Origin: Nitrospinota bacterium
GTDB lineage: Bacteria > Nitrospinota_A > UBA7883
Direction: 5' to 3'
Length of the DNA: 37,456 nt
Assembly (NCBI GenBank): GCA_029879765.1
Contig: JAOUPQ010000003.1
Coordinates: 1-37,456 of the forward strand
Shown here: one piece after another, positions 2,210-22,141 of the stretch
How the letters are laid out: the number at the start of each line of letters is the position of its first letter
Position numbering within the stretch: the first letter of the stretch is position 1
Program-made: the position numbers and the translations under genes
The notes under the pieces: generated by a model
Database searches by the model: none
The model's input: the letters and a program-made list of their open reading frames with translations, nothing else
What the model was told of the DNA's origin: nothing

Positions 2210-2297
2210 TTATCAATTATATGCCCATTGGCCATCCCTTTGCAGGATTGGATCGCCCCTTGCATTATCTTGATTGCCTGCTATACACGGAAGTAGA

Positions 2298-2672
2298 ATG
2301 AAAACATATACTTTTAAAGAGTTTAACAAAGCCATGGCCCTGATAGGCATATTGAACACGGCGAGGACTTTGAAGCAGGGCGCCACCATGCATATCGCCA
2401 AGGACGCGCCGGAGTATCTGGAAGCGATAAGCTATGTGGGTGTCTCCGCGCGGGAGATGGAAAAAGCCGGGATCAGCGAAGGCGACGACGTGGTGGTGAT
2501 CAGCGACCATGGCCAGGTGACCGTCCAGGCCAGAAAGATGGATCTGCAGCCCGGCTCGTTTTTCATGCCGCTGTCCTATCTGGCCAACCGCCTGGTATCC
2601 GCCGAAACCCACGGCGCGGGAGTTCCAGGATTCAAGAACACCGTCGTCACCATAAAGAAACCGGACGAATAA
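2298..2672 (+). CDS. fwdD: formylmethanofuran dehydrogenase subunit D-like, molybdopterin dinucleotide-binding domain
   Basis: Short protein MKTYTFKEFNKAMALIGILNTARTLKQGATMHIAK...EKAGISEGDDVVVISDHGQVTVQAR...GSFFMPLSYLANRLVSAETHGAGVPGFKNTVVTIKK fits FmdD/FwdD; directly upstream of fwdB. Confidence 0.85.
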   Translation: MKTYTFKEFNKAMALIGILNTARTLKQGATMHIAKDAPEYLEAISYVGVSAREMEKAGISEGDDVVVISDHGQVTVQARKMDLQPGSFFMPLSYLANRLVSAETHGAGVPGFKNTVVTIKKPDE

Positions 2673-2699
2673 TCTACAATCAACCATGGGAGAGAATCC

Positions 2700-4019
2700 A
2701 TGACAGCAGTAAAACAGGATGAAGGGATCACGGTAACCGAACATGTGGTGTGCCCCTTCTGCGCCACGCTTTGCGACGATCTGGTCATCCATGTGCAGAA
2801 CAACCAGGTGGTGAAGGTGCGCAATGGATGCAACCTGGCCAGGGGAGTGTTCGAAAACGCCCACAAGGAGTGGGCTACCCCCAGGGTAAATGGCAAGGAG
2901 GTTCCCTATGACTCGGCGGTGGAGGAAGCCGCCAGGATTCTGGCCGCCTCCAACAATCCGCTTATCTACGGCCTCGCCGCCACGGATGTGGACGCCCAGA
3001 AAAAGTGCATAGAGCTGGCGGACCTGATCGGCGCGAACCTGGACAACGCCTCCTCGGTTTGACACTCCCCCACCATGGTGGCACTACAGCTCGGCGGTGC
3101 GCCGGCTGCCACCTTGGGCGAAGTGAAGAACCGGGCGGACCTGGTCATATTCTGGGGCTCCAACCCAGCCGAGAGCCATCCGCGCCATTTCACGCGGTAT
3201 TCCGGCTCGGCCAAGGGAAGGATGAACCCCAGAGGGCGCAAGGACCGATACATTGTGCTGGTGGACATCCGCCCCACGCCATCGGTCAAATACGCCGACG
3301 AGTTCATCCAGATCAAGCCGGGGCATGACTATGAGGTGTTGACGGCCATGCGCATGCTCACCAACGGGAACCGGCCGGATATGGACAGCGTTGGCGATGT
3401 GGCGATCCAGACCCTGGAGCGGCTGGTCCAGCGATGCAAGGACGCCCGGCTGGGCGTTCTGTTCTTTGGCCAGGGGATCACCGAAACCCGTGGCAAACAC
3501 CAGAACTCCATGGCCATTTATCAATTCGGGAAGGATATGAGCCGCCACAGCAAGTTCCTGACCCTGCCGATGCGGGGCCATTACAACGTGGTGGGCAGCG
3601 GCAACACCATGTGCTGGCAGACCGGATACCCCTTCGCCGTGAACTTTGGCCGGGGATATCCCCAGTTCAACCCTGGCGAGTTTTCCGTGGTGGACCTGCT
3701 CAAGCGCAAAGAGCCGGACGCGGCGCTGATCGTGGCCGCCGAGCCGATGGATCATCTGCCTTACGAGGCGGCTCGGCATCTGGAAAATATCCCCACCATA
3801 GTGCTGGACCCGAGGGAGACCTTGACCACCAAGATGGCGGACGTGGTGATCCCGGTGAAACACGCCGGGGTCTCCGTGGAGGGGACGGCGTATCGCATGG
3901 ACCACATCCCGATCAAGATGCGGTCGGTGCTCAACTCCCCATGGCCGAAGGATGACGAGCCGTTGTCCACCATCATCGCGCGGATCAAGGCGATCAGGAA
4001 GGAAGAGGCGGAAACCTAG
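2700..4019 (+). CDS. fwdB: formylmethanofuran dehydrogenase subunit B, predicted selenoprotein with UGA-encoded Sec at codon 121
   Basis: ORFs 2700-3062 and 3075-4019 share a frame, separated only by TGA at 3060-3062. Read-through gives ...LDNASSV-U-HSPTMVALQLGGAPAATLGEVKNRADLVIFWGSNPAESHPRH..., with Sec at the known FwdB/FDH active-site Cys/Sec position. N-terminal VCPFCATLCDD...NGC [4Fe-4S] motif. Confidence 0.92.
3060..3062 (+). other. in-frame UGA predicted to be decoded as selenocysteine
   Basis: Homologous coding sequence continues in the same frame on both sides of the TGA; V-U-H-x-P context matches molybdopterin formate/formyl-MFR dehydrogenases; SECIS-like hairpin downstream. Confidence 0.9.
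3087..3108 (+). promoter_or_regulatory. bacterial SECIS-like stem-loop
   Basis: CAGC[U]CGGCG-GUG-CGCCGGCUG: 4 bp + bulged U + 5 bp, apical loop GUG (3097-3099), 34 nt after the UGA; bulged U and GU loop mirror the E. coli fdhF SECIS. Confidence 0.75.
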
Positions 4020-5660
4020 ATGGGAATCAGGATAGTAAATGGCGAGGTGATCGACCCTGCCCATGGCGAGGACAGGGTGAAAAGAGACGTCCATATCAAG
4101 GATGGCAAGATCGTGGCCGACGCCGGGCAGGACGCCACCGTCATCGACGCCACCGGCTGCGTGGTGATGGCGGGGGGGGTGGATATCCACACCCACGTGG
4201 CCGGGCCGAAGGTGAACTTCGCCCGCCTGATGAGGCCGGAGGACCATCGATATGAGCATGTGTCCCGGGAGGATGGATATGAGCGATCGGGAACCGGCGG
4301 GGTGGCCGCCACCACATATACCACCGGGTATCGATACTGCGAGATGGGATACACCACCATCGTGGAGCCTGCGGTGCCGCCGCTGGGCGCCCGCCATGCC
4401 CATGAGGAGCTGGTGGACATCCCCCAGGTGGATAAGGCCATATTCACATTGCTCGGCAACTCGGAGATCATCTTCCAATATCTGGAAAAGGGAGAGACCA
4501 GCAAGATCAACGAATACATCTCCTGGATCATGGACGCCACCAAGTCCTACTCGGTGAAGATCGTCAATCCCGGCGGGGCGAACATGTGGAAGTATCGCGC
4601 GGACATCCACGACATAGACCAGAAGCTGCGTGATTTCGACACCACACCGCGCCAGATTATCCTGGCCATAGCCGACGCCATGGCCACCCTGGGCCTGCCC
4701 CATCCCTTGCATCTGCACTGCAACAACCTGGGGGTGCCGGACAGCTATAAGACAGCCATCGCCACCGCCGAGGCGATGGAAGGCCGACCGCTGCACCTGA
4801 CCCATCTTCAATTCAGCAGCTACGGCGCCTCCGGCAAGCGCAAGTTCTCCTCCGAGGCGCCCAGGCTGGCCCGGATGGTGAACGACAACAAGAACATCAC
4901 CATCGACGTGGGGCAGGTCCTTTTCGGCAAGACCACCACCATCACCGCCGATGGACCCTTCGAATATCACCTGCACAAGCTCACCGGCTCCAAATGGTAT
5001 AACGGCGATGTGGAGTGCGAGGATGGATGCGGAGTGGTGCCCTATGACTACAAGCGCAAGTCTTTCGTCAACTGCATCCAGTGGGCGGCGGGGCTGGAGC
5101 TGTTCCTGCTGATTGACGACCCGTGGCGGGTGTATCTGACCACCGACCACCCCAACGGCGCTCCATTTATCACATATCCCCACCTGATCCGCCTGCTGAT
5201 GGACAAGGATTTTCGCCGGGAACAGGTGGAGAAGATCAGCGCGGAAGCCGCCGCCGAGATTCCCCTGAAAGTCCTGGATCGGGAATATACCTTGTATGAA
5301 ATCGCCATTATCACCCGCAGTGGCACGGCCAGAAGGCTGGGTCTTGTGAACAAGGGGCATCTGGGAGTTGGGGGCGATGCGGATGTGGCGGTGTATCGCG
5401 CCAGCAGGAATTGGGAGGAGATGTTCGCCAAGCCGGCCTGGGTGATCAAGGATGGGCAGGTGGTGGCCAAAGAGGGGAAGGTGACCCGGCAGGTGTTCGG
5501 AACTACCATGTATGTCCATCCGGCGCGGGGGTTTGCCGATATCGAAAAGGATCTGGCGGATTTCTTCGAGAGCTATTACACGGTGAACATCAACAACTAT
5601 CCTGTGGGATTGGAATACCTGCCCCGGCCGGAGCTTATCCCCTGTCAGGTGAAGGCATAA
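4020..5660 (+). CDS. fwdA: formylmethanofuran dehydrogenase subunit A (amidohydrolase superfamily)
   Basis: 546 aa; VIDATGCVVMAGGVDIHTHVAGPKVNFARLMRPEDH metal-binding region; VKIVNPGGANMWKY; PLHLHCNNLG; YLTTDHPNGAPF; starts directly after the fwdB stop. Confidence 0.95.
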   Translation: MGIRIVNGEVIDPAHGEDRVKRDVHIKDGKIVADAGQDATVIDATGCVVMAGGVDIHTHVAGPKVNFARLMRPEDHRYEHVSREDGYERSGTGGVAATTYTTGYRYCEMGYTTIVEPAVPPLGARHAHEELVDIPQVDKAIFTLLGNSEIIFQYLEKGETSKINEYISWIMDATKSYSVKIVNPGGANMWKYRADIHDIDQKLRDFDTTPRQIILAIADAMATLGLPHPLHLHCNNLGVPDSYKTAIATAEAMEGRPLHLTHLQFSSYGASGKRKFSSEAPRLARMVNDNKNITIDVGQVLFGKTTTITADGPFEYHLHKLTGSKWYNGDVECEDGCGVVPYDYKRKSFVNCIQWAAGLELFLLIDDPWRVYLTTDHPNGAPFITYPHLIRLLMDKDFRREQVEKISAEAAAEIPLKVLDREYTLYEIAIITRSGTARRLGLVNKGHLGVGGDADVAVYRASRNWEEMFAKPAWVIKDGQVVAKEGKVTRQVFGTTMYVHPARGFADIEKDLADFFESYYTVNINNYPVGLEYLPRPELIPCQVKA

Positions 5661-6478
5661 TGATTACTCTGACGCTTAAGGGAAAGCTTTCTATCCCGCT
5701 GGAGGCGGATTCGGTCACCCCGGACAATTTGCATGACAAGTCCAACCACCAGATAAAGGAGCAGACAGTCTACTGGGGAAACAAGAAGAAGACCATCGGT
5801 GATTTTTTCGAGGTGGAGGGGGAGAGGTCGGACCGGATCACCGTGGTGGGAGATTGCGCCAAGGTGAAGTTGTTGGGGCATAAGATGAGCTTCGGGGCCG
5901 TGCATGTGAAAGGGAACACAGGCTATAACACCGGCTCCTATATGACCGGGGGGGCTATCACCATCGACGGGAACACCGCCGACTACCTGGGCGCCATGAT
6001 GGAGGGGGGGCTTATCGACCTGAAGGGGAACGCTGGCCATTTTGTGGGGGGCGCATACAAAGGGGAGACCGCCGGGATGACCGGTGGCGAGATCATTGTT
6101 CGGGGAAACGTGGGCCACGAAACGGGGAGCTTCATGCGGCGAGGTTTGATCGCCGTGGGAGGGAACGCCGGGGATTTTACCGGGCTTTTCATGCTGGCGG
6201 GGACGATTGTGGTGTTGGGGAAGGCTGGGGAGAGAGTGGGGGCGAACATGAGCCGTGGCTCCATCATCCTGATGAACCAGGCCAGGCTGCTGCCCAGTTT
6301 TCTGGAAAACGGAGTGGTGGCCACCCCGGCGGTGGAAATAGTCTTGGGCAGAGTCCGGGAGCTGGGGCTGGCTCCCGCTGGTGGTGGGCGATATGTGAGG
6401 CACACCGGCGACGTAAACGCAGTGGGGCGTGGGGAGATTCTGATGCGGGTGGTGAACCGGAACCACTTGCAGGTCTGA
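5660..6478 (+). CDS. fwdC: formylmethanofuran dehydrogenase subunit C (GXGXG / glutamate-synthase C-terminal-like domain)
   Basis: Start codon overlaps the fwdA stop (TAATG); repeats such as GNTGYNTGSYMTGGAITIDGNTADYLGAMMEGG...GGEIIVRGNVGHETGSFMRRG. Confidence 0.93.
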   Translation: MITLTLKGKLSIPLEADSVTPDNLHDKSNHQIKEQTVYWGNKKKTIGDFFEVEGERSDRITVVGDCAKVKLLGHKMSFGAVHVKGNTGYNTGSYMTGGAITIDGNTADYLGAMMEGGLIDLKGNAGHFVGGAYKGETAGMTGGEIIVRGNVGHETGSFMRRGLIAVGGNAGDFTGLFMLAGTIVVLGKAGERVGANMSRGSIILMNQARLLPSFLENGVVATPAVEIVLGRVRELGLAPAGGGRYVRHTGDVNAVGRGEILMRVVNRNHLQV

Positions 6479-6555
6479 CTTTCCCATCCGTAACGATAAT
6501 CGTATATATGGAAGTCCTTTTTGTTAAGAACAGGTTTATCAGATAGAAATAAACT

Positions 6556-6585
6556 TTGACATCAACAATGTACTGTTGATATATT
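6556..6585 (+). promoter_or_regulatory. sigma70-like promoter overlapped by an inverted-repeat operator candidate
   Basis: TTGACA (6556-6561), 18-nt spacer, TATATT (6580-6585); dyad ATCAACA-N6-TGTTGAT at 6561-6580 fills the spacer. Confidence 0.55.
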
Positions 6586-7007
6586 ACCCTCGGTTGTCTG
6601 CAAGAGGGTTCATATTGCTTTGGATTTGCATCAGTTGGTTTTCCGGGAGAGAGACTGATTGGTGTTGTTTAAAGGGTTGACAGATGTCAGTTTGTAGGCG
6701 GGGTGTTTTTAATCAAGCTGCTATGCAGTCGAGCCACAAAGGCAAATCAACTACCACACAACTCCATCACATAGTCGCAGGAGTAATTCTGCTCATATAA
6801 ATATAAAGCCCTTTTGTTATGGACCGAGCGTAGAAAGCCTTACTTTGTAAGATCATAGTATTTCTGGTTATTTTTACGTTCTTTTTGGGGGGATGGTTGG
6901 AATAGGGGCGAAGTTTCCGCTGGAATGTCGGAGGCAGTTCGTCACCTTGTAAATATTTCGATGTAACGCAAAGTTACCGCGAAACAACTATTTTGGAGGA
7001 GAGAAAG

Positions 7008-7427
7008 ATGAAGAAGCTCGCGTTTGCACTGTTGATTGCTTTGACCTTTACTGGATTGACCGGATGTCCTGGATCCGATCCCGCCAAAGGAACCGCCCAG
7101 TTTTACAATGACCTGGTATACTCCAGCGGTCGGGAGTTCATGGCCAGGTTCGTGGTCGGAGGCATGACCATGGACGCGTGGACCGGCCGATGGTCTGCGG
7201 AAGCCAGCTCGGAGGATTGCGGAGGCCAGAAACCCGCCACCTTGTATCTGGATGGGGATAATTACGGCACCAACGATATAACCTTTGACTGCGATGTTCA
7301 TAACCTGTACAAGGTGACGTTGGTAAATGGCAATATTACCGTGCAGTACAGCACCGGCTCGAAAATGCGGGAGACCGTATCATACGCCCTTCCCGAGGGA
7401 AGCCCGTTTTCGGCCTTGTCGGAGTAA
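7008..7427 (+). CDS. small lipoprotein, unknown function
   Basis: MKKLAFALLIALTFTGLTGCPGS signal peptide with lipobox LTGC; upstream GGAGGAG ribosome-binding site. Confidence 0.75.
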   Translation: MKKLAFALLIALTFTGLTGCPGSDPAKGTAQFYNDLVYSSGREFMARFVVGGMTMDAWTGRWSAEASSEDCGGQKPATLYLDGDNYGTNDITFDCDVHNLYKVTLVNGNITVQYSTGSKMRETVSYALPEGSPFSALSE

Positions 7428-15789: not shown

Positions 15790-16299
15790 CTACCTGTCCA
15801 CCGTCACTTCCGCCGCCACCGGCGTCGCAAGCTTCATGGTGGAGGAAACGGGGCAATGGGCCGCCGCCAGGTCTATAAGCTCCCTGGTTTTAGCTTCATC
15901 GGCGGTGGTTTTGAGCCGGACTTTATACGACACATTCCGGAAACCCGGATTAACGTCCGCCACGTTGAACAACCCCCGCAGGTCGATATCTCCTGTCAGT
16001 TCCACATTCACCGCCTCCAGCTCGATATCCAGCATGGCGGCGTATTCCACGAACACCGCGCTGACACAGGATCCCAGCGCCATCAGCATCATCTCCATCG
16101 GGTTGGGGGCCTGGTCGTCCCCGCCGGAAGGAACCGGATAGTCCGACATGACAACATGGGTCCTGATACGGTTTTCGTTGAGCAGGCCGCCTTTCCATTC
16201 TGTGGACACACCAGGCCGATACACCGCGGCCTCAGGTTTTTTAACGAAGAGCGCCTTGCGGCTGGTCAGGATGTCTTTAAGAGGACGTCGCTCATTCAA
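15790..16299 (-). CDS. OsmC/Ohr-family protein
   Basis: DYPVPSGGDDQAPNPMEMMLMALGSCVSAVF; C-terminal HCPVSSTMKLATPVAAEV. Confidence 0.85.
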   Translation of the reverse strand: MNERRPLKDILTSRKALFVKKPEAAVYRPGVSTEWKGGLLNENRIRTHVVMSDYPVPSGGDDQAPNPMEMMLMALGSCVSAVFVEYAAMLDIELEAVNVELTGDIDLRGLFNVADVNPGFRNVSYKVRLKTTADEAKTRELIDLAAAHCPVSSTMKLATPVAAEVTVDR

Positions 16300-17776
16300 G
16301 TCCGGCTCTCCTGTGGATAAAATCGAGCATCACGCGCACCCCGGCGCCGGTCCCCCCTTTGCGGATATACCCTTTCTCCTTGTCGGAGAAAGCCGTGCCC
16401 GCGATGTCCACATGGGCCCACTTGCCGGTGACATGCTTTTTCAAAAACGCCGCCGCCGTGCTGGCGCCGCCGCCCCTGGGCCCTATGTTGGCCACATCCG
16501 CCACCTGGCTTTTTATGTCGTCCTCATATTCCTGGAACAAAGGAAGAGGCCACAGCTTGTCCCCGGTGCGCATGCCGGATTCGCGAAGCTGGCCGATCAA
16601 CTCGTCGTCGTTGCCGAACAGGCCGGAGCAATGGGCGCCTAGGGCCACCATGCAGGCGCCGGTGAGGGTGGCGAAATCCACGGTGCAGTCCGGCTTGTAC
16701 CGCCCGGCATAGGCCAGGGCGTCGGAGAGAATCAGCCGACCCTCGGCGTCGGTGTTGAGCACCTCCATGGTGACGCCGGATAGACCGGTGAGCACGTCGC
16801 CTGGCTTGGTGGCCGTGCCGGAGGGCATGTTTTCCGTGGCGGGGACCAGCCCCACCAGGTTCACTTTCAGTTTCATTATGGCCACCGCTGTCATGACGGC
16901 TATGGTGGCGGCGCCCCCGGACATGTCCGATTTCATCTCGTGCATATTCAGGGCTGGCTTGATGGAGATGCCGCCGGAATCGAAGGTCAGCCCCTTGCCC
17001 ACCATCACTATCGGCTTCTGGCTCTTCGGTCCCTTCATGTATTCCATGACGATGAATTTCGGCTCCTCCTGGCTTCCTCTGGACACACCGATCAGGCCCC
17101 CCATCTTCATCTTCTCTATGGCTTTTCGTCCATGGACAGCGCATTTGAAGCCATGCTTTTTGCCCAGAGCGGCCGCCTGGTTCCCCAGATACGTGGGGGT
17201 GGCATAGTTGGCCGGAGTGTTGATAAGGTCCCTGGCCAGCATCACCGCGTCGGCCGTCGCAGCGCCGTTTTTCATCCCCTTTTCCGCCGCCGCGCCATGC
17301 CCCAGGATGACAATCTCTTCCAGCATAACTGGGGTTTTCTCTTTTTTGAAAGTATCGAAGTTATATAGCGCCAGCCTGGTCCCCTCCACCGTGGCCTGGG
17401 CGATGGTTTTCGCATCATCTTCCGAGCCAGCCAGTGACGCCATCGCCGAGGCGCAGCTTTTTACTCCAGCGGATTTTACCGCCCTGGCGGCCACTGCCGA
17501 AGCGTACCGGTACGAATCGCTGGTGGCGCCATCACGCTTGCCCACGCCCACCACCACCACATACCTGGCAGCAATAGCGCCCATGGTCTCCAGCGGCATG
17601 ACCTGCCCTCGTTTCCCCTCGAACTTGCGCCTCTTGGCCATGGCGCCCAGTTTCCCTTCCAGCGCCTTGTCCAGTTCCTGAAAGTCCCCTTTATCCAACT
17701 CCCCCTCGAACACGCCGATCACCAGCCCTTCGGCTTTTGACTCAACGGCTCGGGAGTTATCTACCCTGTATTTCAT
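16292..17776 (-). CDS. pepA: leucyl aminopeptidase (M17)
   Basis: M17 signature NTDAEGRLILSDALAYA; VGKGLTFDSGGISIKPALNMHEMKSDMSGGA. Confidence 0.96.
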   Translation of the reverse strand: MKYRVDNSRAVESKAEGLVIGVFEGELDKGDFQELDKALEGKLGAMAKRRKFEGKRGQVMPLETMGAIAARYVVVVGVGKRDGATSDSYRYASAVAARAVKSAGVKSCASAMASLAGSEDDAKTIAQATVEGTRLALYNFDTFKKEKTPVMLEEIVILGHGAAAEKGMKNGAATADAVMLARDLINTPANYATPTYLGNQAAALGKKHGFKCAVHGRKAIEKMKMGGLIGVSRGSQEEPKFIVMEYMKGPKSQKPIVMVGKGLTFDSGGISIKPALNMHEMKSDMSGGAATIAVMTAVAIMKLKVNLVGLVPATENMPSGTATKPGDVLTGLSGVTMEVLNTDAEGRLILSDALAYAGRYKPDCTVDFATLTGACMVALGAHCSGLFGNDDELIGQLRESGMRTGDKLWPLPLFQEYEDDIKSQVADVANIGPRGGGASTAAAFLKKHVTGKWAHVDIAGTAFSDKEKGYIRKGGTGAGVRVMLDFIHRRAGLE

Positions 17777-17898: not shown

Positions 17899-19869
17899 CT
17901 ATCGAAAGCTCGAACCCGCCATTACTCTTGGGAACTGGGCGCGCAGTTCATCCAGCACCACTTCCGGGCAGCTTTCATACCTTTTGGAAAAATGGAAAGG
18001 CGCCAGGCGCTTCACCCCGGCGGCCAGGGCGATCTTTCCGCACGCCTGGGCGGTTAGATGTTTGGTGAGCTTTGCCTGGGACTGATCCTCCATGGTGAAC
18101 ACGGCTTCCAGGAACAGAAGGTCCGCTCCCTTCGCCAGCCGGATCAGCCGCTCCTGGTTCCGGGGAGTGTCCCCCAGGTCGGTGGCATAGGCCATCTTCC
18201 CCCCCGGGGCGCGCAGAACCAGGTCTTCGGCCAGCTCTCGCACACTTCTGGCCTGGGCGCCAGGGGGAGTGATCATGGCGTCCATTTCGCCGCGCAGTAT
18301 CCTGACCTTCAGCTCCCCCAGCCATTTGCCTGGCGAAAGGGACAACTCCAAAAGCTTGTCCTTGCGGATGTTCAAGGTTTCCGGCTGCTCGAAAGAATAT
18401 GCCATCACCGGGGTTTTATGGTCCAGCTCCGTGGCCCGGATGGTGAAAAGATCCTCCTCCAGGATAATCCCGTCGACAACCTGTCGCACCCCCAAAGGCT
18501 CCACAGTGTCCACTCCCGCCTGAACCCTGCTTGTAGTCATGGTTTCCCCCGCCAGTTCCGCCACCTCGAACACAGGCCCCCTCAGTCCTATCCTGTCCCA
18601 CAAGATCCCATCCACCATCCCCTTGATATGGGCGCACAGCCCCGGGGGGCCGTAGATCCGGCAGGCAGGCAGGATGCCTATGCGAGAGCGCAACAACCAA
18701 AGAAACCCGCCGATGTGGTCTATATGGGCATGGCTGATGAAGATATCGGTCAACTGGTGGGCTATCCTGCCGGGCAGCCGAGTGGCCTCTCCCAGGTCGA
18801 ACAGCAGGCTGCGGCGCTGGTCACGAAGGCGCAGGTGCAGCAAGGGGTCGCCGAACACTCCATTCAACAGCGCTACGCTGGCTTGTCCCACCCGGGTGGC
18901 GTAGGCCGGGCCGTGGCTTGTCGTTATTTCCGAGTCGGGATACATGTCCGGGGCCAGGCCGCGCCCCTCCCGGCGGGGGTCGCGCCGCGAGGTTTTTACA
19001 AGACCTCGTGAATCCCGACAGGCGTCCCGGACCAGCAGGCTGTGCCATTTGCTGTCCCCGGGGCGCATCATGGCCCGGATGACCCCATCTTTTGTGATCG
19101 AGATTATTTCCCCCATGGACACAGTGGCGCCACGGCTATCTATCAGCGCCGCCTGTCTGCCCGGCCATGCGTCTATGGCTTCCACGGGCGGAGGAGCCCC
19201 CACCAGAGGAACGGATCGGGTGTCTATATCCAGGGTCTGCGCTCCATCCATGTAGCGTTCCCATAACCTGGTTCTGGTGGTGTCTCGTTCCTTTGTGGAA
19301 AGGCTCCTTGCCTCGGCGGAGGGAGGAACCGTGAAGATTTCAACTCCTGTCGCGCCAAGCTCGGAAACCATGGCTGGAGCCGAATCTTTATCAGAAATAA
19401 CCACCACGGCTTCTGCTTTTGCTCCTCTTGCGATCCCCTCCAGAAGCTCCGCGCGCGCCATCCCCCGCATCACTCCCGGCATGTCGATGATCAGGAACGC
19501 GTCCCTTTCCACTTTCGCCGCCAGGGCCGTGGCAGCCAACACCAGGGGAAGACGGAACCTGGCCGCATTCAAGCTGCACAAGGCTGCGGAATGGACAAGC
19601 TCCCATGCGCCACCGCTCCATCGGCCCAGATTGGCAGCGCCGGGAGGACCGAAGGATGGGGAACCGGGATCGGCGGCCAGGATAAAGGTCTTGCCCTGGT
19701 TGGAGATAATGGAGGCCATGGCCGCGGCGAGGGTCGATTTTCCCGCGCCGGGCGGGCCGAAGACCATCACCCTGCGATGAAGTTTGAATGCAAGCCGCGG
19801 GATCCGCTCCAAATCAGGCCAAGTGTCGGCGCTATCCTCTCCGGTCCTGGGTGATGGCGTCGACGCCAT
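17899..19869 (-). CDS. fusion: N-terminal Clp1/Grc3-type P-loop polynucleotide kinase domain + C-terminal RNase Z-like metallo-beta-lactamase domain
   Basis: Walker A VMVFGPPGAGKSTL; Clp1-like ILAADPGSPSFGPPGAANL; FLIIDMPGVMRG; MBL motif FISHAHIDHIGGF; RNase Z-like YATDLGDTP, KHLTAQACGKIALAAGVKRLAPFHFSKRY. Start 19869 follows the mgtE stop; the ORF track start is 19902. Confidence 0.8.
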   Translation of the reverse strand: MASTPSPRTGEDSADTWPDLERIPRLAFKLHRRVMVFGPPGAGKSTLAAAMASIISNQGKTFILAADPGSPSFGPPGAANLGRWSGGAWELVHSAALCSLNAARFRLPLVLAATALAAKVERDAFLIIDMPGVMRGMARAELLEGIARGAKAEAVVVISDKDSAPAMVSELGATGVEIFTVPPSAEARSLSTKERDTTRTRLWERYMDGAQTLDIDTRSVPLVGAPPPVEAIDAWPGRQAALIDSRGATVSMGEIISITKDGVIRAMMRPGDSKWHSLLVRDACRDSRGLVKTSRRDPRREGRGLAPDMYPDSEITTSHGPAYATRVGQASVALLNGVFGDPLLHLRLRDQRRSLLFDLGEATRLPGRIAHQLTDIFISHAHIDHIGGFLWLLRSRIGILPACRIYGPPGLCAHIKGMVDGILWDRIGLRGPVFEVAELAGETMTTSRVQAGVDTVEPLGVRQVVDGIILEEDLFTIRATELDHKTPVMAYSFEQPETLNIRKDKLLELSLSPGKWLGELKVRILRGEMDAMITPPGAQARSVRELAEDLVLRAPGGKMAYATDLGDTPRNQERLIRLAKGADLLFLEAVFTMEDQSQAKLTKHLTAQACGKIALAAGVKRLAPFHFSKRYESCPEVVLDELRAQFPRVMAGSSFR

Positions 19870-19870
19870 G

Positions 19871-21250
19871 TCAGTGGAGCAGGTGGATAAGCGCCGTGGC
19901 AAAAGTGAGGAATATGAACACGGCGGTGATATCGTTGAGCGCCAGGACGATCGGCCCCCCAGCGATGGCCGGGTCTACATCCAGCCATTTGAAAATGAGA
20001 GGTATTCCGGCGCCCATCAGCGCGGCCAGGTTTATTGCCAGAAAAACAGCCCCGCCCATGATCAATCCCATTTCCGCGGAAGACTGCCATGCCCAGGCCG
20101 CCACGCCGGAGATCAATCCGCAAACAATCCCGAGGATGAAGCCGACTTTGACTTCTTTGAAGATAAAAGCCCCCAGGGCGCCTGGATCTATCCTGCCCGT
20201 GGCGATGCCGCGAACCACCAGTGTGGAGCTTTGGCTTCCCACGTTGCCGCTCATTCCCATGACGATGGGGATGAAAGCGGCCAGCGCAATCGCCGCCTCC
20301 AGGGTTCCTTTGAACAGCAGGATCAGCGCGCCAGTGACGAATCCTCCCGCCAGACTGGCGGTGAGCCAAGGCAGCCGGTATCGGGCCATCTCCACCACGC
20401 TGGTGGCGGGGGAGAGAACCTCATCGCCAGCGCCCACCAGGGCCATGATATCCTCGTCCGCCTCTTCCACGAAAACATCCACGATATCGTCAATGAGGAT
20501 CCTGCCCAGCAGGACCATGTTTCTGTCCACCACCGCCAGGGAAATCAGATCGTATTTCTTGAAGAGGCTGGCCACGTTTTCCTGGTCGTCGTCGGCGTAG
20601 ACGTAAATGGGGGGATGCCCCTCGTCCACCATGTCGCCCACTTTTTTCATGCCGGGATTGAGCAAAAGCTCGATGATCGGGGCAACTCCCTTGAGCCGAC
20701 CCAGGTTGTCCACCACGAAAATGTTGTATACCTCCCGGTTTATGTCTGGGCGGGAGCGCAACAGGTCCAGGGTCTGGTCCAGGGTCATCTCCTCCCTGGC
20801 GGCGATAAGCTCGGTCTGCATGATTCCGCCGGCGGTTTCCGGCTCGAACTGCAGAAGCCGGGAGACTTGCGCGTCCACCTCCGCCGAAGTGGAGCCGAGC
20901 ACTTCCTCGGCCACCTCTTCTTCCATCTCCCCCAGCAGATCCGCGGCGTCATCGGTGTTCATCTCGCCGATCAGTTCGGCCAGTTCCTCGGGAGTGGAGT
21001 TGTCCAGGATAAGTTCGCGGGAGCTTTCGTCCAGCAGGGGGAGGATCTGGGAGCCCATTTCCACCCCCACGGCGGAGAACGCCTCCAGCATTCTGGATTC
21101 GTCCTCTATATGCTCTATGGCGGCGGCGATATCCGCCGGGTGATACATATCCTCCAGCGATTTGTCGGGCTGGCCTTGACCCAGGATCTCCTCCTGGATA
21201 GCCAGGTATTTTTCTTCTTCAGGTGTCATAATGTCACCACAATAGCCCAC
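19871..21250 (-). CDS. mgtE: magnesium transporter MgtE
   Basis: N domain plus CBS domains plus TM domain with RLPWLTASLAGGF and PIVMGMSGNVGSQSSTLVVRGIATG. Confidence 0.95.
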   Translation of the reverse strand: MGYCGDIMTPEEEKYLAIQEEILGQGQPDKSLEDMYHPADIAAAIEHIEDESRMLEAFSAVGVEMGSQILPLLDESSRELILDNSTPEELAELIGEMNTDDAADLLGEMEEEVAEEVLGSTSAEVDAQVSRLLQFEPETAGGIMQTELIAAREEMTLDQTLDLLRSRPDINREVYNIFVVDNLGRLKGVAPIIELLLNPGMKKVGDMVDEGHPPIYVYADDDQENVASLFKKYDLISLAVVDRNMVLLGRILIDDIVDVFVEEADEDIMALVGAGDEVLSPATSVVEMARYRLPWLTASLAGGFVTGALILLFKGTLEAAIALAAFIPIVMGMSGNVGSQSSTLVVRGIATGRIDPGALGAFIFKEVKVGFILGIVCGLISGVAAWAWQSSAEMGLIMGGAVFLAINLAALMGAGIPLIFKWLDVDPAIAGGPIVLALNDITAVFIFLTFATALIHLLH

Positions 21251-21283
21251 CAGAGGGGACGAATTATAAATGCAGATCCGATA

Positions 21284-22141
21284 TCACATCGGCCCGGAAG
21301 TCTCCTCTTCCGGATTGGGCGTCGGATCGTCAGCACCCTTGCGCCAAGACAGGAACCACTCCACAGGGCCGTGGAGCATATACGCCGCCGCCATGGCGAA
21401 AAGCATATGGTGCGGGAATAGCGCCACGATGAACAGGAAGAGCACTATCCATAGGAACAGATGGAAAGGGCGCCTCTTTTTGGTATCGATATATTTGAAG
21501 TTGCGATACGGGACGTTGCTCACCATCAGCAGCGCCAGGGTGTATACAGTGACCAGCATCACCATACCGGGGGCCTTTTCCATCTCCAGCGCGCCATTGG
21601 TCAGCAACACCGTGGCGGCCAGCAGCCACGCCGCGGCGGGGATAGGCATCCCCACGAAATGGTCTTTTCGAATGTCGGACTGCTGGATGTTGAACCGCGC
21701 CAGCCGCAAGGCCCCGCACAGGGCAAAGAGAAACGCAGCCATCCAGCCGAGCCTGCCGTAGGGCTGCAGAACCCAGTTGTACATCAGGATAGCCGGCGCC
21801 AGGCCGAAGGACATGAGGTCGGACAGCGAGTCGAACTCCACGCCGAAGTTCGATGTGGCCCCCATGGCCCTGGCTATCCGCCCATCGAGCCCGTCCAGGA
21901 TCATCGCCAGGATGATTGCCCACGCGGCCTTGTAATAGTCGCCATTGATGGAAGCCACCACCGTGTAGAATCCACAGAAGAACGCCGCAGAAGTGACCAG
22001 GCTTGGGACAATGAATACACCTTTGCGGAAGCGGTGCAGCCTGCCGCCGGGCTGCGCCTGTTCTTCCGGCGGCATCCCGTCCAGATCCATCTCCCCGTTC
22101 ATGTTTTCCTTCTGCTCGTCTTTCCGGTTTTCCATGGTCAT
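21284..22141 (-). CDS. pssA: CDP-diacylglycerol--serine O-phosphatidyltransferase
   Basis: CDP-alcohol phosphatidyltransferase motif DGLDGRIARAMGATSNFGVEFDSLSDLMSFG; start overlaps the psd stop (ATGA), so the longer ORF start at 22528 is rejected. Confidence 0.93.
   Translation of the reverse strand: MTMENRKDEQKENMNGEMDLDGMPPEEQAQPGGRLHRFRKGVFIVPSLVTSAAFFCGFYTVVASINGDYYKAAWAIILAMILDGLDGRIARAMGATSNFGVEFDSLSDLMSFGLAPAILMYNWVLQPYGRLGWMAAFLFALCGALRLARFNIQQSDIRKDHFVGMPIPAAAWLLAATVLLTNGALEMEKAPGMVMLVTVYTLALLMVSNVPYRNFKYIDTKKRRPFHLFLWIVLFLFIVALFPHHMLFAMAAAYMLHGPVEWFLSWRKGADDPTPNPEEETSGPM

Follow-up and report, generated by a model that had tools for sequence, protein, structure and literature searches.

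Clp1/Grc3-family proteins are 5'-hydroxyl polynucleotide kinases, and Clp1-family kinases are encoded by 0.9% of 1,543 complete bacterial genomes (PMC6777427). Among them, standalone bacterial Clp1, exemplified by Ts-Clp1 of Thermus scotoductus (PMC6777427), is nearest in kind to the protein described here. In eukaryotes, Clp1 members are teamed with RNA endonucleases in the multi-subunit TSEN-CLP1 and CPSF73/Pcf11-Clp1 mRNA 3'-end machineries, where CPSF73 also has an MBL fold, but of the beta-CASP type. Eukaryotic Las1-Grc3, the ITS2 nuclease-kinase complex, likewise joins an RNA nuclease physically to a Clp1-family kinase, although its nuclease is HEPN rather than MBL and two chains are involved; the likeness to the bacterial protein is one of working arrangement, and the kinase folds match. 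Las1 leaves a 5'-hydroxyl end and RNase Z a 5'-phosphate. Bacterial Pnkp and fungal Trl1, both end-healing enzymes, likewise unite a 5' kinase and a 3'-end phosphoesterase in a fusion; those domains belong to unrelated families, and both enzymes have an RNA ligase domain, which the protein described here lacks.

We analyzed a 37,456-nucleotide stretch of a Nitrospinota bacterium genome (the window), in which the original prediction had placed a Clp1/Grc3-type kinase domain and an RNase Z-like nuclease domain on one chain. The reading frame lies on the minus strand between an ATG at 19869 and a stop at 17899-17901, the open frame reaching back to a TTG at 19902; the plus-strand frame of 17899-19869 is broken by stops and is non-coding. 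All of the motifs quoted in that prediction, GPPGAGKST, ADPGSPSFGPPGAANL, HAHIDHIGGF, KHLT and GVKRLAPFHFSKRY, were recovered in the minus-strand frame, at residues 38-46, 66-81, 380-389, 603-606 and 618-631, respectively. The locus comprises:

19871-21250, minus strand: mgtE magnesium transporter (TIGR00400, 325 bits), one base upstream of the fusion gene
17899-19869, minus strand: fusion gene, 656 aa, Clp1-type P-loop plus RNase Z-type MBL (open reading frame, profile matches, congener at 74% identity)
18991-19806, minus strand: Clp1/Grc3-type domain, residues 22-293, with P-loop core and C-terminal beta domain (CLP1_P, hhalign, Foldseek, AF2)
18895-18990, minus strand: inter-domain linker, residues 294-325 (pLDDT below 50 at 298-308 and 311-318)
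17914-18894, minus strand: RNase Z-type MBL domain, residues 326-652 (NF002558/PRK02126, TIGR02651, Lactamase_B_2; Foldseek 2fk6/4gcw/2cbn)

A leucyl aminopeptidase gene (16292-17776, minus strand) follows on the same strand. The order of mgtE and then the fusion gene, or its MBL-only relative in congener G002, is common to both congeners (L002 and L003) and missing from other fusion loci. Across 15 fusion loci, no conserved neighbors were found except between close-relative pairs and for one family common to two loci. Since the 15 loci have only the fusion in common, the mgtE linkage is restricted to the window genus. The fusion was not found in the plasmid, phage and viral-contig collections searched, where 16 plasmid records matched the MBL half alone, and PADLOC returned just weak P-loop matches, with no mobile or anti-phage defense setting found. 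With neither neighbors beyond close relatives nor carriage on plasmids, phages or viral contigs, the fusion thus acts as a self-contained chromosomal gene. Elsewhere in the window, a 545-aa plus-strand frame antisense to mgtE (19784-21421) resembles the shadow frame of a G+C-rich gene, and two minus-strand frames of 811 aa (3084-5519) and 266 aa (2265-3065) have no NCBIfam match.

The Clp1/Grc3-type identity predicted for the N-terminal half was borne out. Pfam CLP1_P scored 53.7 bits over residues 32-208 (curated cut-off 26.6). By hhalign, the profile aligned with that of standalone bacterial Clp1 across 259 columns at 99.7% probability, and the alignment took in the C-terminal beta domain that lies past CLP1_P. 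Modeled alone with AF2, this half gave a pLDDT of 85.1 and a pTM of 0.84, and all 22 Foldseek matches at E<=1e-3 were Clp1, Grc3 or NOL9; the next fold was the SRP receptor at 5.8e-3. The N-terminal half of the full-length model best matched human CLP1 of the TSEN complex (8hmy_E, E 1e-13), and also matched C. elegans Clp1 with RNA. When the kinase alignment by itself was searched as a profile against PDB sequences, P-loop proteins such as RecA and midasin dominated the hits, although these also included Grc3 and Clp1 chains; it was the structure search that decided the fold. Other P-loop families (MeaB, AAA, SRP and others) were rejected, as their matches were weak and local to the P-loop and their folds much weaker. 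A profile search for a second Clp1 domain found none in the window genome, both CLP1_P matches lying in the fusion gene.

Consensus motifs of Clp1 and their roles have been published (PMC6777427), with RxxxxR as the spacing of the lid arginines. The equivalents in the window protein are:

19735-19758, minus strand: Walker A GPPGAGKS, residues 38-45, intact in 31/31 fusions
19639-19671, minus strand: Walker B-type DPGSPSFGPPG, residues 67-77, aligned with Clp1 DxGQ....PPG, Gln replaced by Ser
19471-19485, minus strand: clasp equivalent DMPGV, residues 129-133 (Clp1 consensus [T/S/L]xGW)
19273-19287, minus strand: lid arginines R195 and R199 (RxxxR), aligning to R190/R194, which are invariant in standalone Clp1

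Like standalone Clp1, with which homology extends over the whole length, the fusions have Walker A, the Walker B Asp, PPG/PG, the lid RxxxR and the C-terminal beta domain. The Walker A pattern GxxxxGK[S/T] is present in all 31 fusions, and RxxxR in 30 of them (first Arg 30/31, second 31/31). Differences lie in the Walker B and clasp motifs. For the Walker B pattern [D/E]hhQ (DxGQ), Asp67 is found in 31/31 fusions but Gln in 0/31, the fusions reading DPG[S/T/N/A/L/M] where Clp1 has DxGQ; the Gln is kept in 37/37 standalone bacterial Clp1 proteins. On this account we class the protein as a divergent relative of Clp1/Grc3 rather than as a proven active kinase. The motif that had been likened to D-x-G-Q is thus present in the window protein without its Q, as D-P-G-S. 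The clasp reads D[A/G/T/P/M/L]PG[V/L/M], with the consensus Thr in 4/31 fusions and the Trp in 0/31; the Trp is also missing from most standalone bacterial Clp1. Residues R104, R106, D129, P131, G132, R135 and G136 are specific to the fusion clade and invariant or nearly so in the fusion alignment. Some eukaryotic Clp1 proteins that have lost kinase activity show motif changes, above all in the clasp (PMC10598085). Because Walker A, Asp67 and the lid arginines are kept while the Gln and the clasp Thr are lost, we predict that nucleotide binding by the fusions is likely, and put the chances of 5'-hydroxyl kinase activity at about even.

RNase Z-like character of the C-terminal half was likewise upheld. 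NCBIfam PRK02126 (NF002558, 'ribonuclease Z') matched residues 332-649 at 264.8 bits (E 1e-78), under its own cut-off of 315, and the equivalog TIGR02651 gave 113.6 bits, under its cut-off of 293, whereas Lactamase_B_2 scored 51.3 bits against a cut-off of 27. By Foldseek against the PDB, the best match to this half of the AF2 model was the RNase Z-tRNA complex 2fk6 (E 2.3e-18, TM 0.74). Aligning the protein to B. subtilis RNase Z gave the residue assignments below, with motifs as defined in PMC3161902:

18715-18732, minus strand: motif II HAHIDH, residues 380-385, zinc ligands; H380, H382, D384 and H385 invariant in 16 fusions
18418-18420, minus strand: motif III His484, invariant in 16 aligned fusions
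18202-18384, minus strand: flexible-arm (exosite) equivalent, residues 496-556, with GP-like motif (alignment, model)
18178-18180, minus strand: motif IV Asp564, invariant in 16 aligned fusions
18106-18108, minus strand: invariant site in the alignment of 16 fusions
18058-18060, minus strand: His604, counterpart of the HST-motif His (HLT in the window protein), invariant in 16 aligned fusions
17992-17994, minus strand: motif V His626 (FHFS), invariant in 16 aligned fusions

tRNase Z motifs I-V are complete, with D358, HxHxDH, H484, D564 and H626 invariant in the 16 aligned fusions. The HEAT Glu (E588) and HST His (H604) are also invariant, with differing neighboring letters (LEAV/CEAx and HLT). 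D358, H380, H382, D384, H385, H484, D564, E588, H604 and H626 make up the tRNase Z metal-ligand and proton-transfer set (PMC3161902). Between motifs III and IV, the AF2 model places a helix-bearing insert of the size of the flexible arm that, with its GP motif, is defined in PMC3161902. Compared with GxPxGP, this motif reads PGKW in the window genus, GLxPGPW in most fusions and GLPxGPW in many standalone relatives. Fusions therefore resemble RNase Z in motifs I-V, the HEAT Glu, the HST His, the arm-sized insert and the best structural match. Unlike RNase Z, they score below both the NF002558 and TIGR02651 cut-offs, bear an additional N-terminal kinase-type domain and lack PxKxRN, a motif absent from 84/84 MBL rows. 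PxKxRN is tied to rejection of CCA-bearing tRNA; T. maritima-type enzymes are true tRNase Z although they lack it, and CCA is believed not to block them (PMC3161902). The full-length model, built with 16 fusion homologs, had a mean pLDDT of 83.7 but a pTM of 0.54, indicating that the single domains are well predicted and their relative placement is not.

The genomic setting bears on this assignment. As to whether a separate canonical rnz exists, no TIGR02651 match above cut-off was found in the window genome or in 18 more genomes reached through fusion loci and congeners, whereas 9/14 control genomes had one. Vreelandella rituensis alone has a near-canonical RNase Z copy, at 260 bits. With the exception of V. 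rituensis and one genome without a retrieved fusion, the best RNase Z-like match in the 18 genomes was the fusion itself (in G002, its MBL-only relative). Canonical RNase Z was also present in just 1/21 genomes with a standalone PRK02126-type MBL; in a comparison uncorrected for phylogeny, this suggests that PRK02126-type proteins take the place of canonical RNase Z. CCA is encoded by 28 of the 32 tRNA genes read in the window genome. Those without it are Thr-TGT, Thr-CGT, Lys-CTT and Arg-GCG (L132, L135, L141 and L142).

At least 31 sampled bacteria carry the fusion; they belong to the Gamma- and Zetaproteobacteria, to the Deltaproteobacteria/Desulfobacterota and to the window genus. Gammaproteobacterial hosts include Nitrosomonas sp. 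Nm33, N. communis Nm44, Methylomicrobium sp. RS1, Vreelandella rituensis and several Chromatiales; further hosts are Mariprofundaceae and Desulfobacterales/Deltaproteobacteria. Scanning roughly 85,000 species genomes with MBL-derived patterns gave at least 19 loci reaching into the kinase half and at least 61 with MBL only (L068-L128). An even sample of 369 genomes from the class of Vreelandella held 14 genomes with a fusion-length frame bearing both motifs (the centre included) and 4 with a standalone Clp1. In the phylum of Geomesophilobacter, CLP1_P was found in 61/396 genomes, mostly as standalone frames of about 300 aa. One genome (G062) has, in addition to the fusion, another RNase Z-like frame (contig C231:333-1250), whose 779 aa would allow a second fusion.

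The fusions group as a single clade of the MBL tree (SH-aLRT 100), with just two solo rows inside it: G002, inside the window genus, and L061, a gene cut by a contig edge. In the kinase tree, fusions and standalone Clp1 form two sides of one branch with support of 100. Fusions thus differ from standalone Clp1 in forming a separate clade and in being always joined to MBL, G002 being the only exception seen. One congener (G001) encodes the fusion in a single frame at 74% identity. The other, G002, has a 354-aa MBL protein with a short N-terminus and no kinase half directly behind mgtE (L003 402-1466, minus strand), and a CLP1_P search of its whole assembly, which is 81% complete, gave no match. 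The kinase half of G002 appears to have been deleted cleanly in frame, although in a draft assembly a misassembly is possible. The simplest history is one fusion followed by one loss of the kinase half in a congener, and the G002 gene offers a natural kinase-minus version for comparison. In the comparison of congeners, dN/dS was about 0.17 (kinase half) and about 0.12 (MBL half); for a Nitrosomonas pair the values were 0.19 and 0.14. Both halves are therefore maintained under purifying selection, and the architecture is that of a conserved protein family.

An unfused arrangement was seen in one gammaproteobacterium (G265, L192, plus strand), where a standalone DVGQ Clp1 (5153-6091) is followed after 80 bp by a standalone PRK02126-type MBL (6171-7226), in the gene order of the fusion and on the same strand. 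An MBL gene adjoined 1/34 standalone Clp1 loci checked. This second, maybe independent Clp1-MBL association is suggestive only, because, for standalone Clp1 in the phylum of Geomesophilobacter, 0/30 loci had an MBL gene within 1.5 kb.

A literature search combining ribonuclease Z, Clp1 and fusion, in a library with few subscription papers, found nothing; the original prediction, too, named no characterized bacterial example. The architecture was not described in the searched passages of two Clp1-family surveys, and the main text of Saito 2019 mentions neither lactamase nor RNase Z.

Given the domain identities, the conserved catalytic residues, selection on both halves and the missing canonical RNase Z, we consider it slightly short of an even bet that the fusion is a nuclease-kinase that processes RNA ends, its activities, substrate and coupling being inferred from sequence and models. 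The C-terminal half would be the genome's RNase Z-type nuclease, holding two zinc ions through HAHIDH, H484, D564 and H626. Its flexible arm would grip the tRNA elbow, and the nuclease would cut a tRNA or tRNA-like RNA 3' of its acceptor stem, leaving a 3'-hydroxyl and a 5'-phosphate. The cut would probably fall after CCA, given that the CCA-sensing PxKxRN is absent and that CCA is encoded in most of the tRNA genes here. The N-terminal half would be a Clp1-type NTP-dependent 5'-hydroxyl kinase that phosphorylates 5'-hydroxyl RNA ends passed on by, or adjoining, the nuclease, for example fragments from nucleases that generate 5'-hydroxyls. Phosphorylation would then either open the way to decay that depends on a 5'-phosphate or withhold the ends from RtcB. 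A 3'-end nuclease coupled to 5'-phosphorylation is favored because nearly all fusion genomes lack canonical RNase Z. Against a kinase stand the DxGQ Gln in 0/31 fusions, the clasp Thr in 4/31 and G002, which lacks the kinase half. Furthermore, RNase Z cleavage itself leaves a 5'-phosphate, so a kinase is not needed for the nuclease's own product. The fuller proposal, of a single-chain nuclease-kinase that replaces canonical RNase Z in its hosts, couples MBL cleavage to Clp1-type 5'-phosphorylation through an active site without the DxGQ Gln, and is a convergent counterpart of Las1-Grc3 and CPSF73/Clp1, is more tentative.

The leading rival holds that the protein is a tRNase Z for housekeeping 3' processing whose Clp1-like P-loop domain binds ATP and RNA and positions or regulates the nuclease without being a kinase. 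Yeast Clp1, which binds ATP without kinase activity, is a model for such a domain. In favor of this reading, almost every fusion has lost the Walker B Gln and the clasp Thr/Trp, G002 manages without the domain, and kinase-dead Clp1 proteins show motif changes, above all in the clasp (PMC10598085). However, near-invariance of the Walker A Lys, Asp67, the lid arginines and the clade-specific set, with a dN/dS of about 0.17, exceeds the apparent need of a scaffold, and we regard a regulatory domain as unlikely while taking it seriously.

Alternatively, the kinase could make 5'-phosphates while the MBL half, as a phosphodiesterase, opens 2',3'-cyclic phosphates, readying broken RNA for ligation. 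Healing enzymes such as Pnkp and the kinase-CPD part of fungal Trl1 pair a 5' kinase with a phosphodiesterase, and the fusion mirrors that combination. The MBL half nonetheless bears tRNase Z signatures (arm with GP-like motif, HEAT Glu, HST His) unlike a generic phosphodiesterase. RtcB, which needs 5'-hydroxyl ends, was found in 17/18 fusion or congener genomes searched, whereas the ATP-dependent RNA ligase PF09414 was above cut-off in 4/18, the window genome not among them. A link to ATP-dependent RNA ligase was rejected, as most searched genomes lack one, and these counts do not favor ligation-based repair as the purpose of the kinase, which leaves end healing improbable. The RtcB homolog of the window genome (G000, contig C48:4746-5762) matches its profile in two pieces with the middle unmatched; as the match is similar in both congeners, it reflects a divergent RtcB rather than an error.

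Far less probable is a role for the MBL half outside RNA, with the P-loop domain as partner, for example in stripping AMP from proteins. RNase Z was reported in 2025 to remove SelO-attached AMP from proteins (PMC12663964), but gene neighborhoods give no pointer in that direction and the kinase half is specifically Clp1-like, a family of RNA-end enzymes. An assembly or frameshift artifact joining two genes, conceivable for a draft of 378 contigs with one congener lacking the N-terminal half, was ruled out by the single frame recurring in the 74% congener and about 30 other independent assemblies, including cultured Nitrosomonas, Methylomicrobium and Vreelandella, and by the single fusion clade in both domain trees, so that the predicted single chain stands.

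Regarding what Clp1-family kinases do in bacteria, the fusion names a partner activity for a rare bacterial family, and the question thereby becomes testable in one purified protein. It also has parallels in the nuclease-kinase partnerships with which eukaryotes splice tRNA, process rRNA and form mRNA 3' ends, and it suggests that many bacteria may rely on a variant RNase Z in place of the canonical enzyme.

Beyond the fusions, PRK02126-type MBL proteins are widespread in bacteria without an above-cut-off RNase Z and may be an unrecognized replacement.
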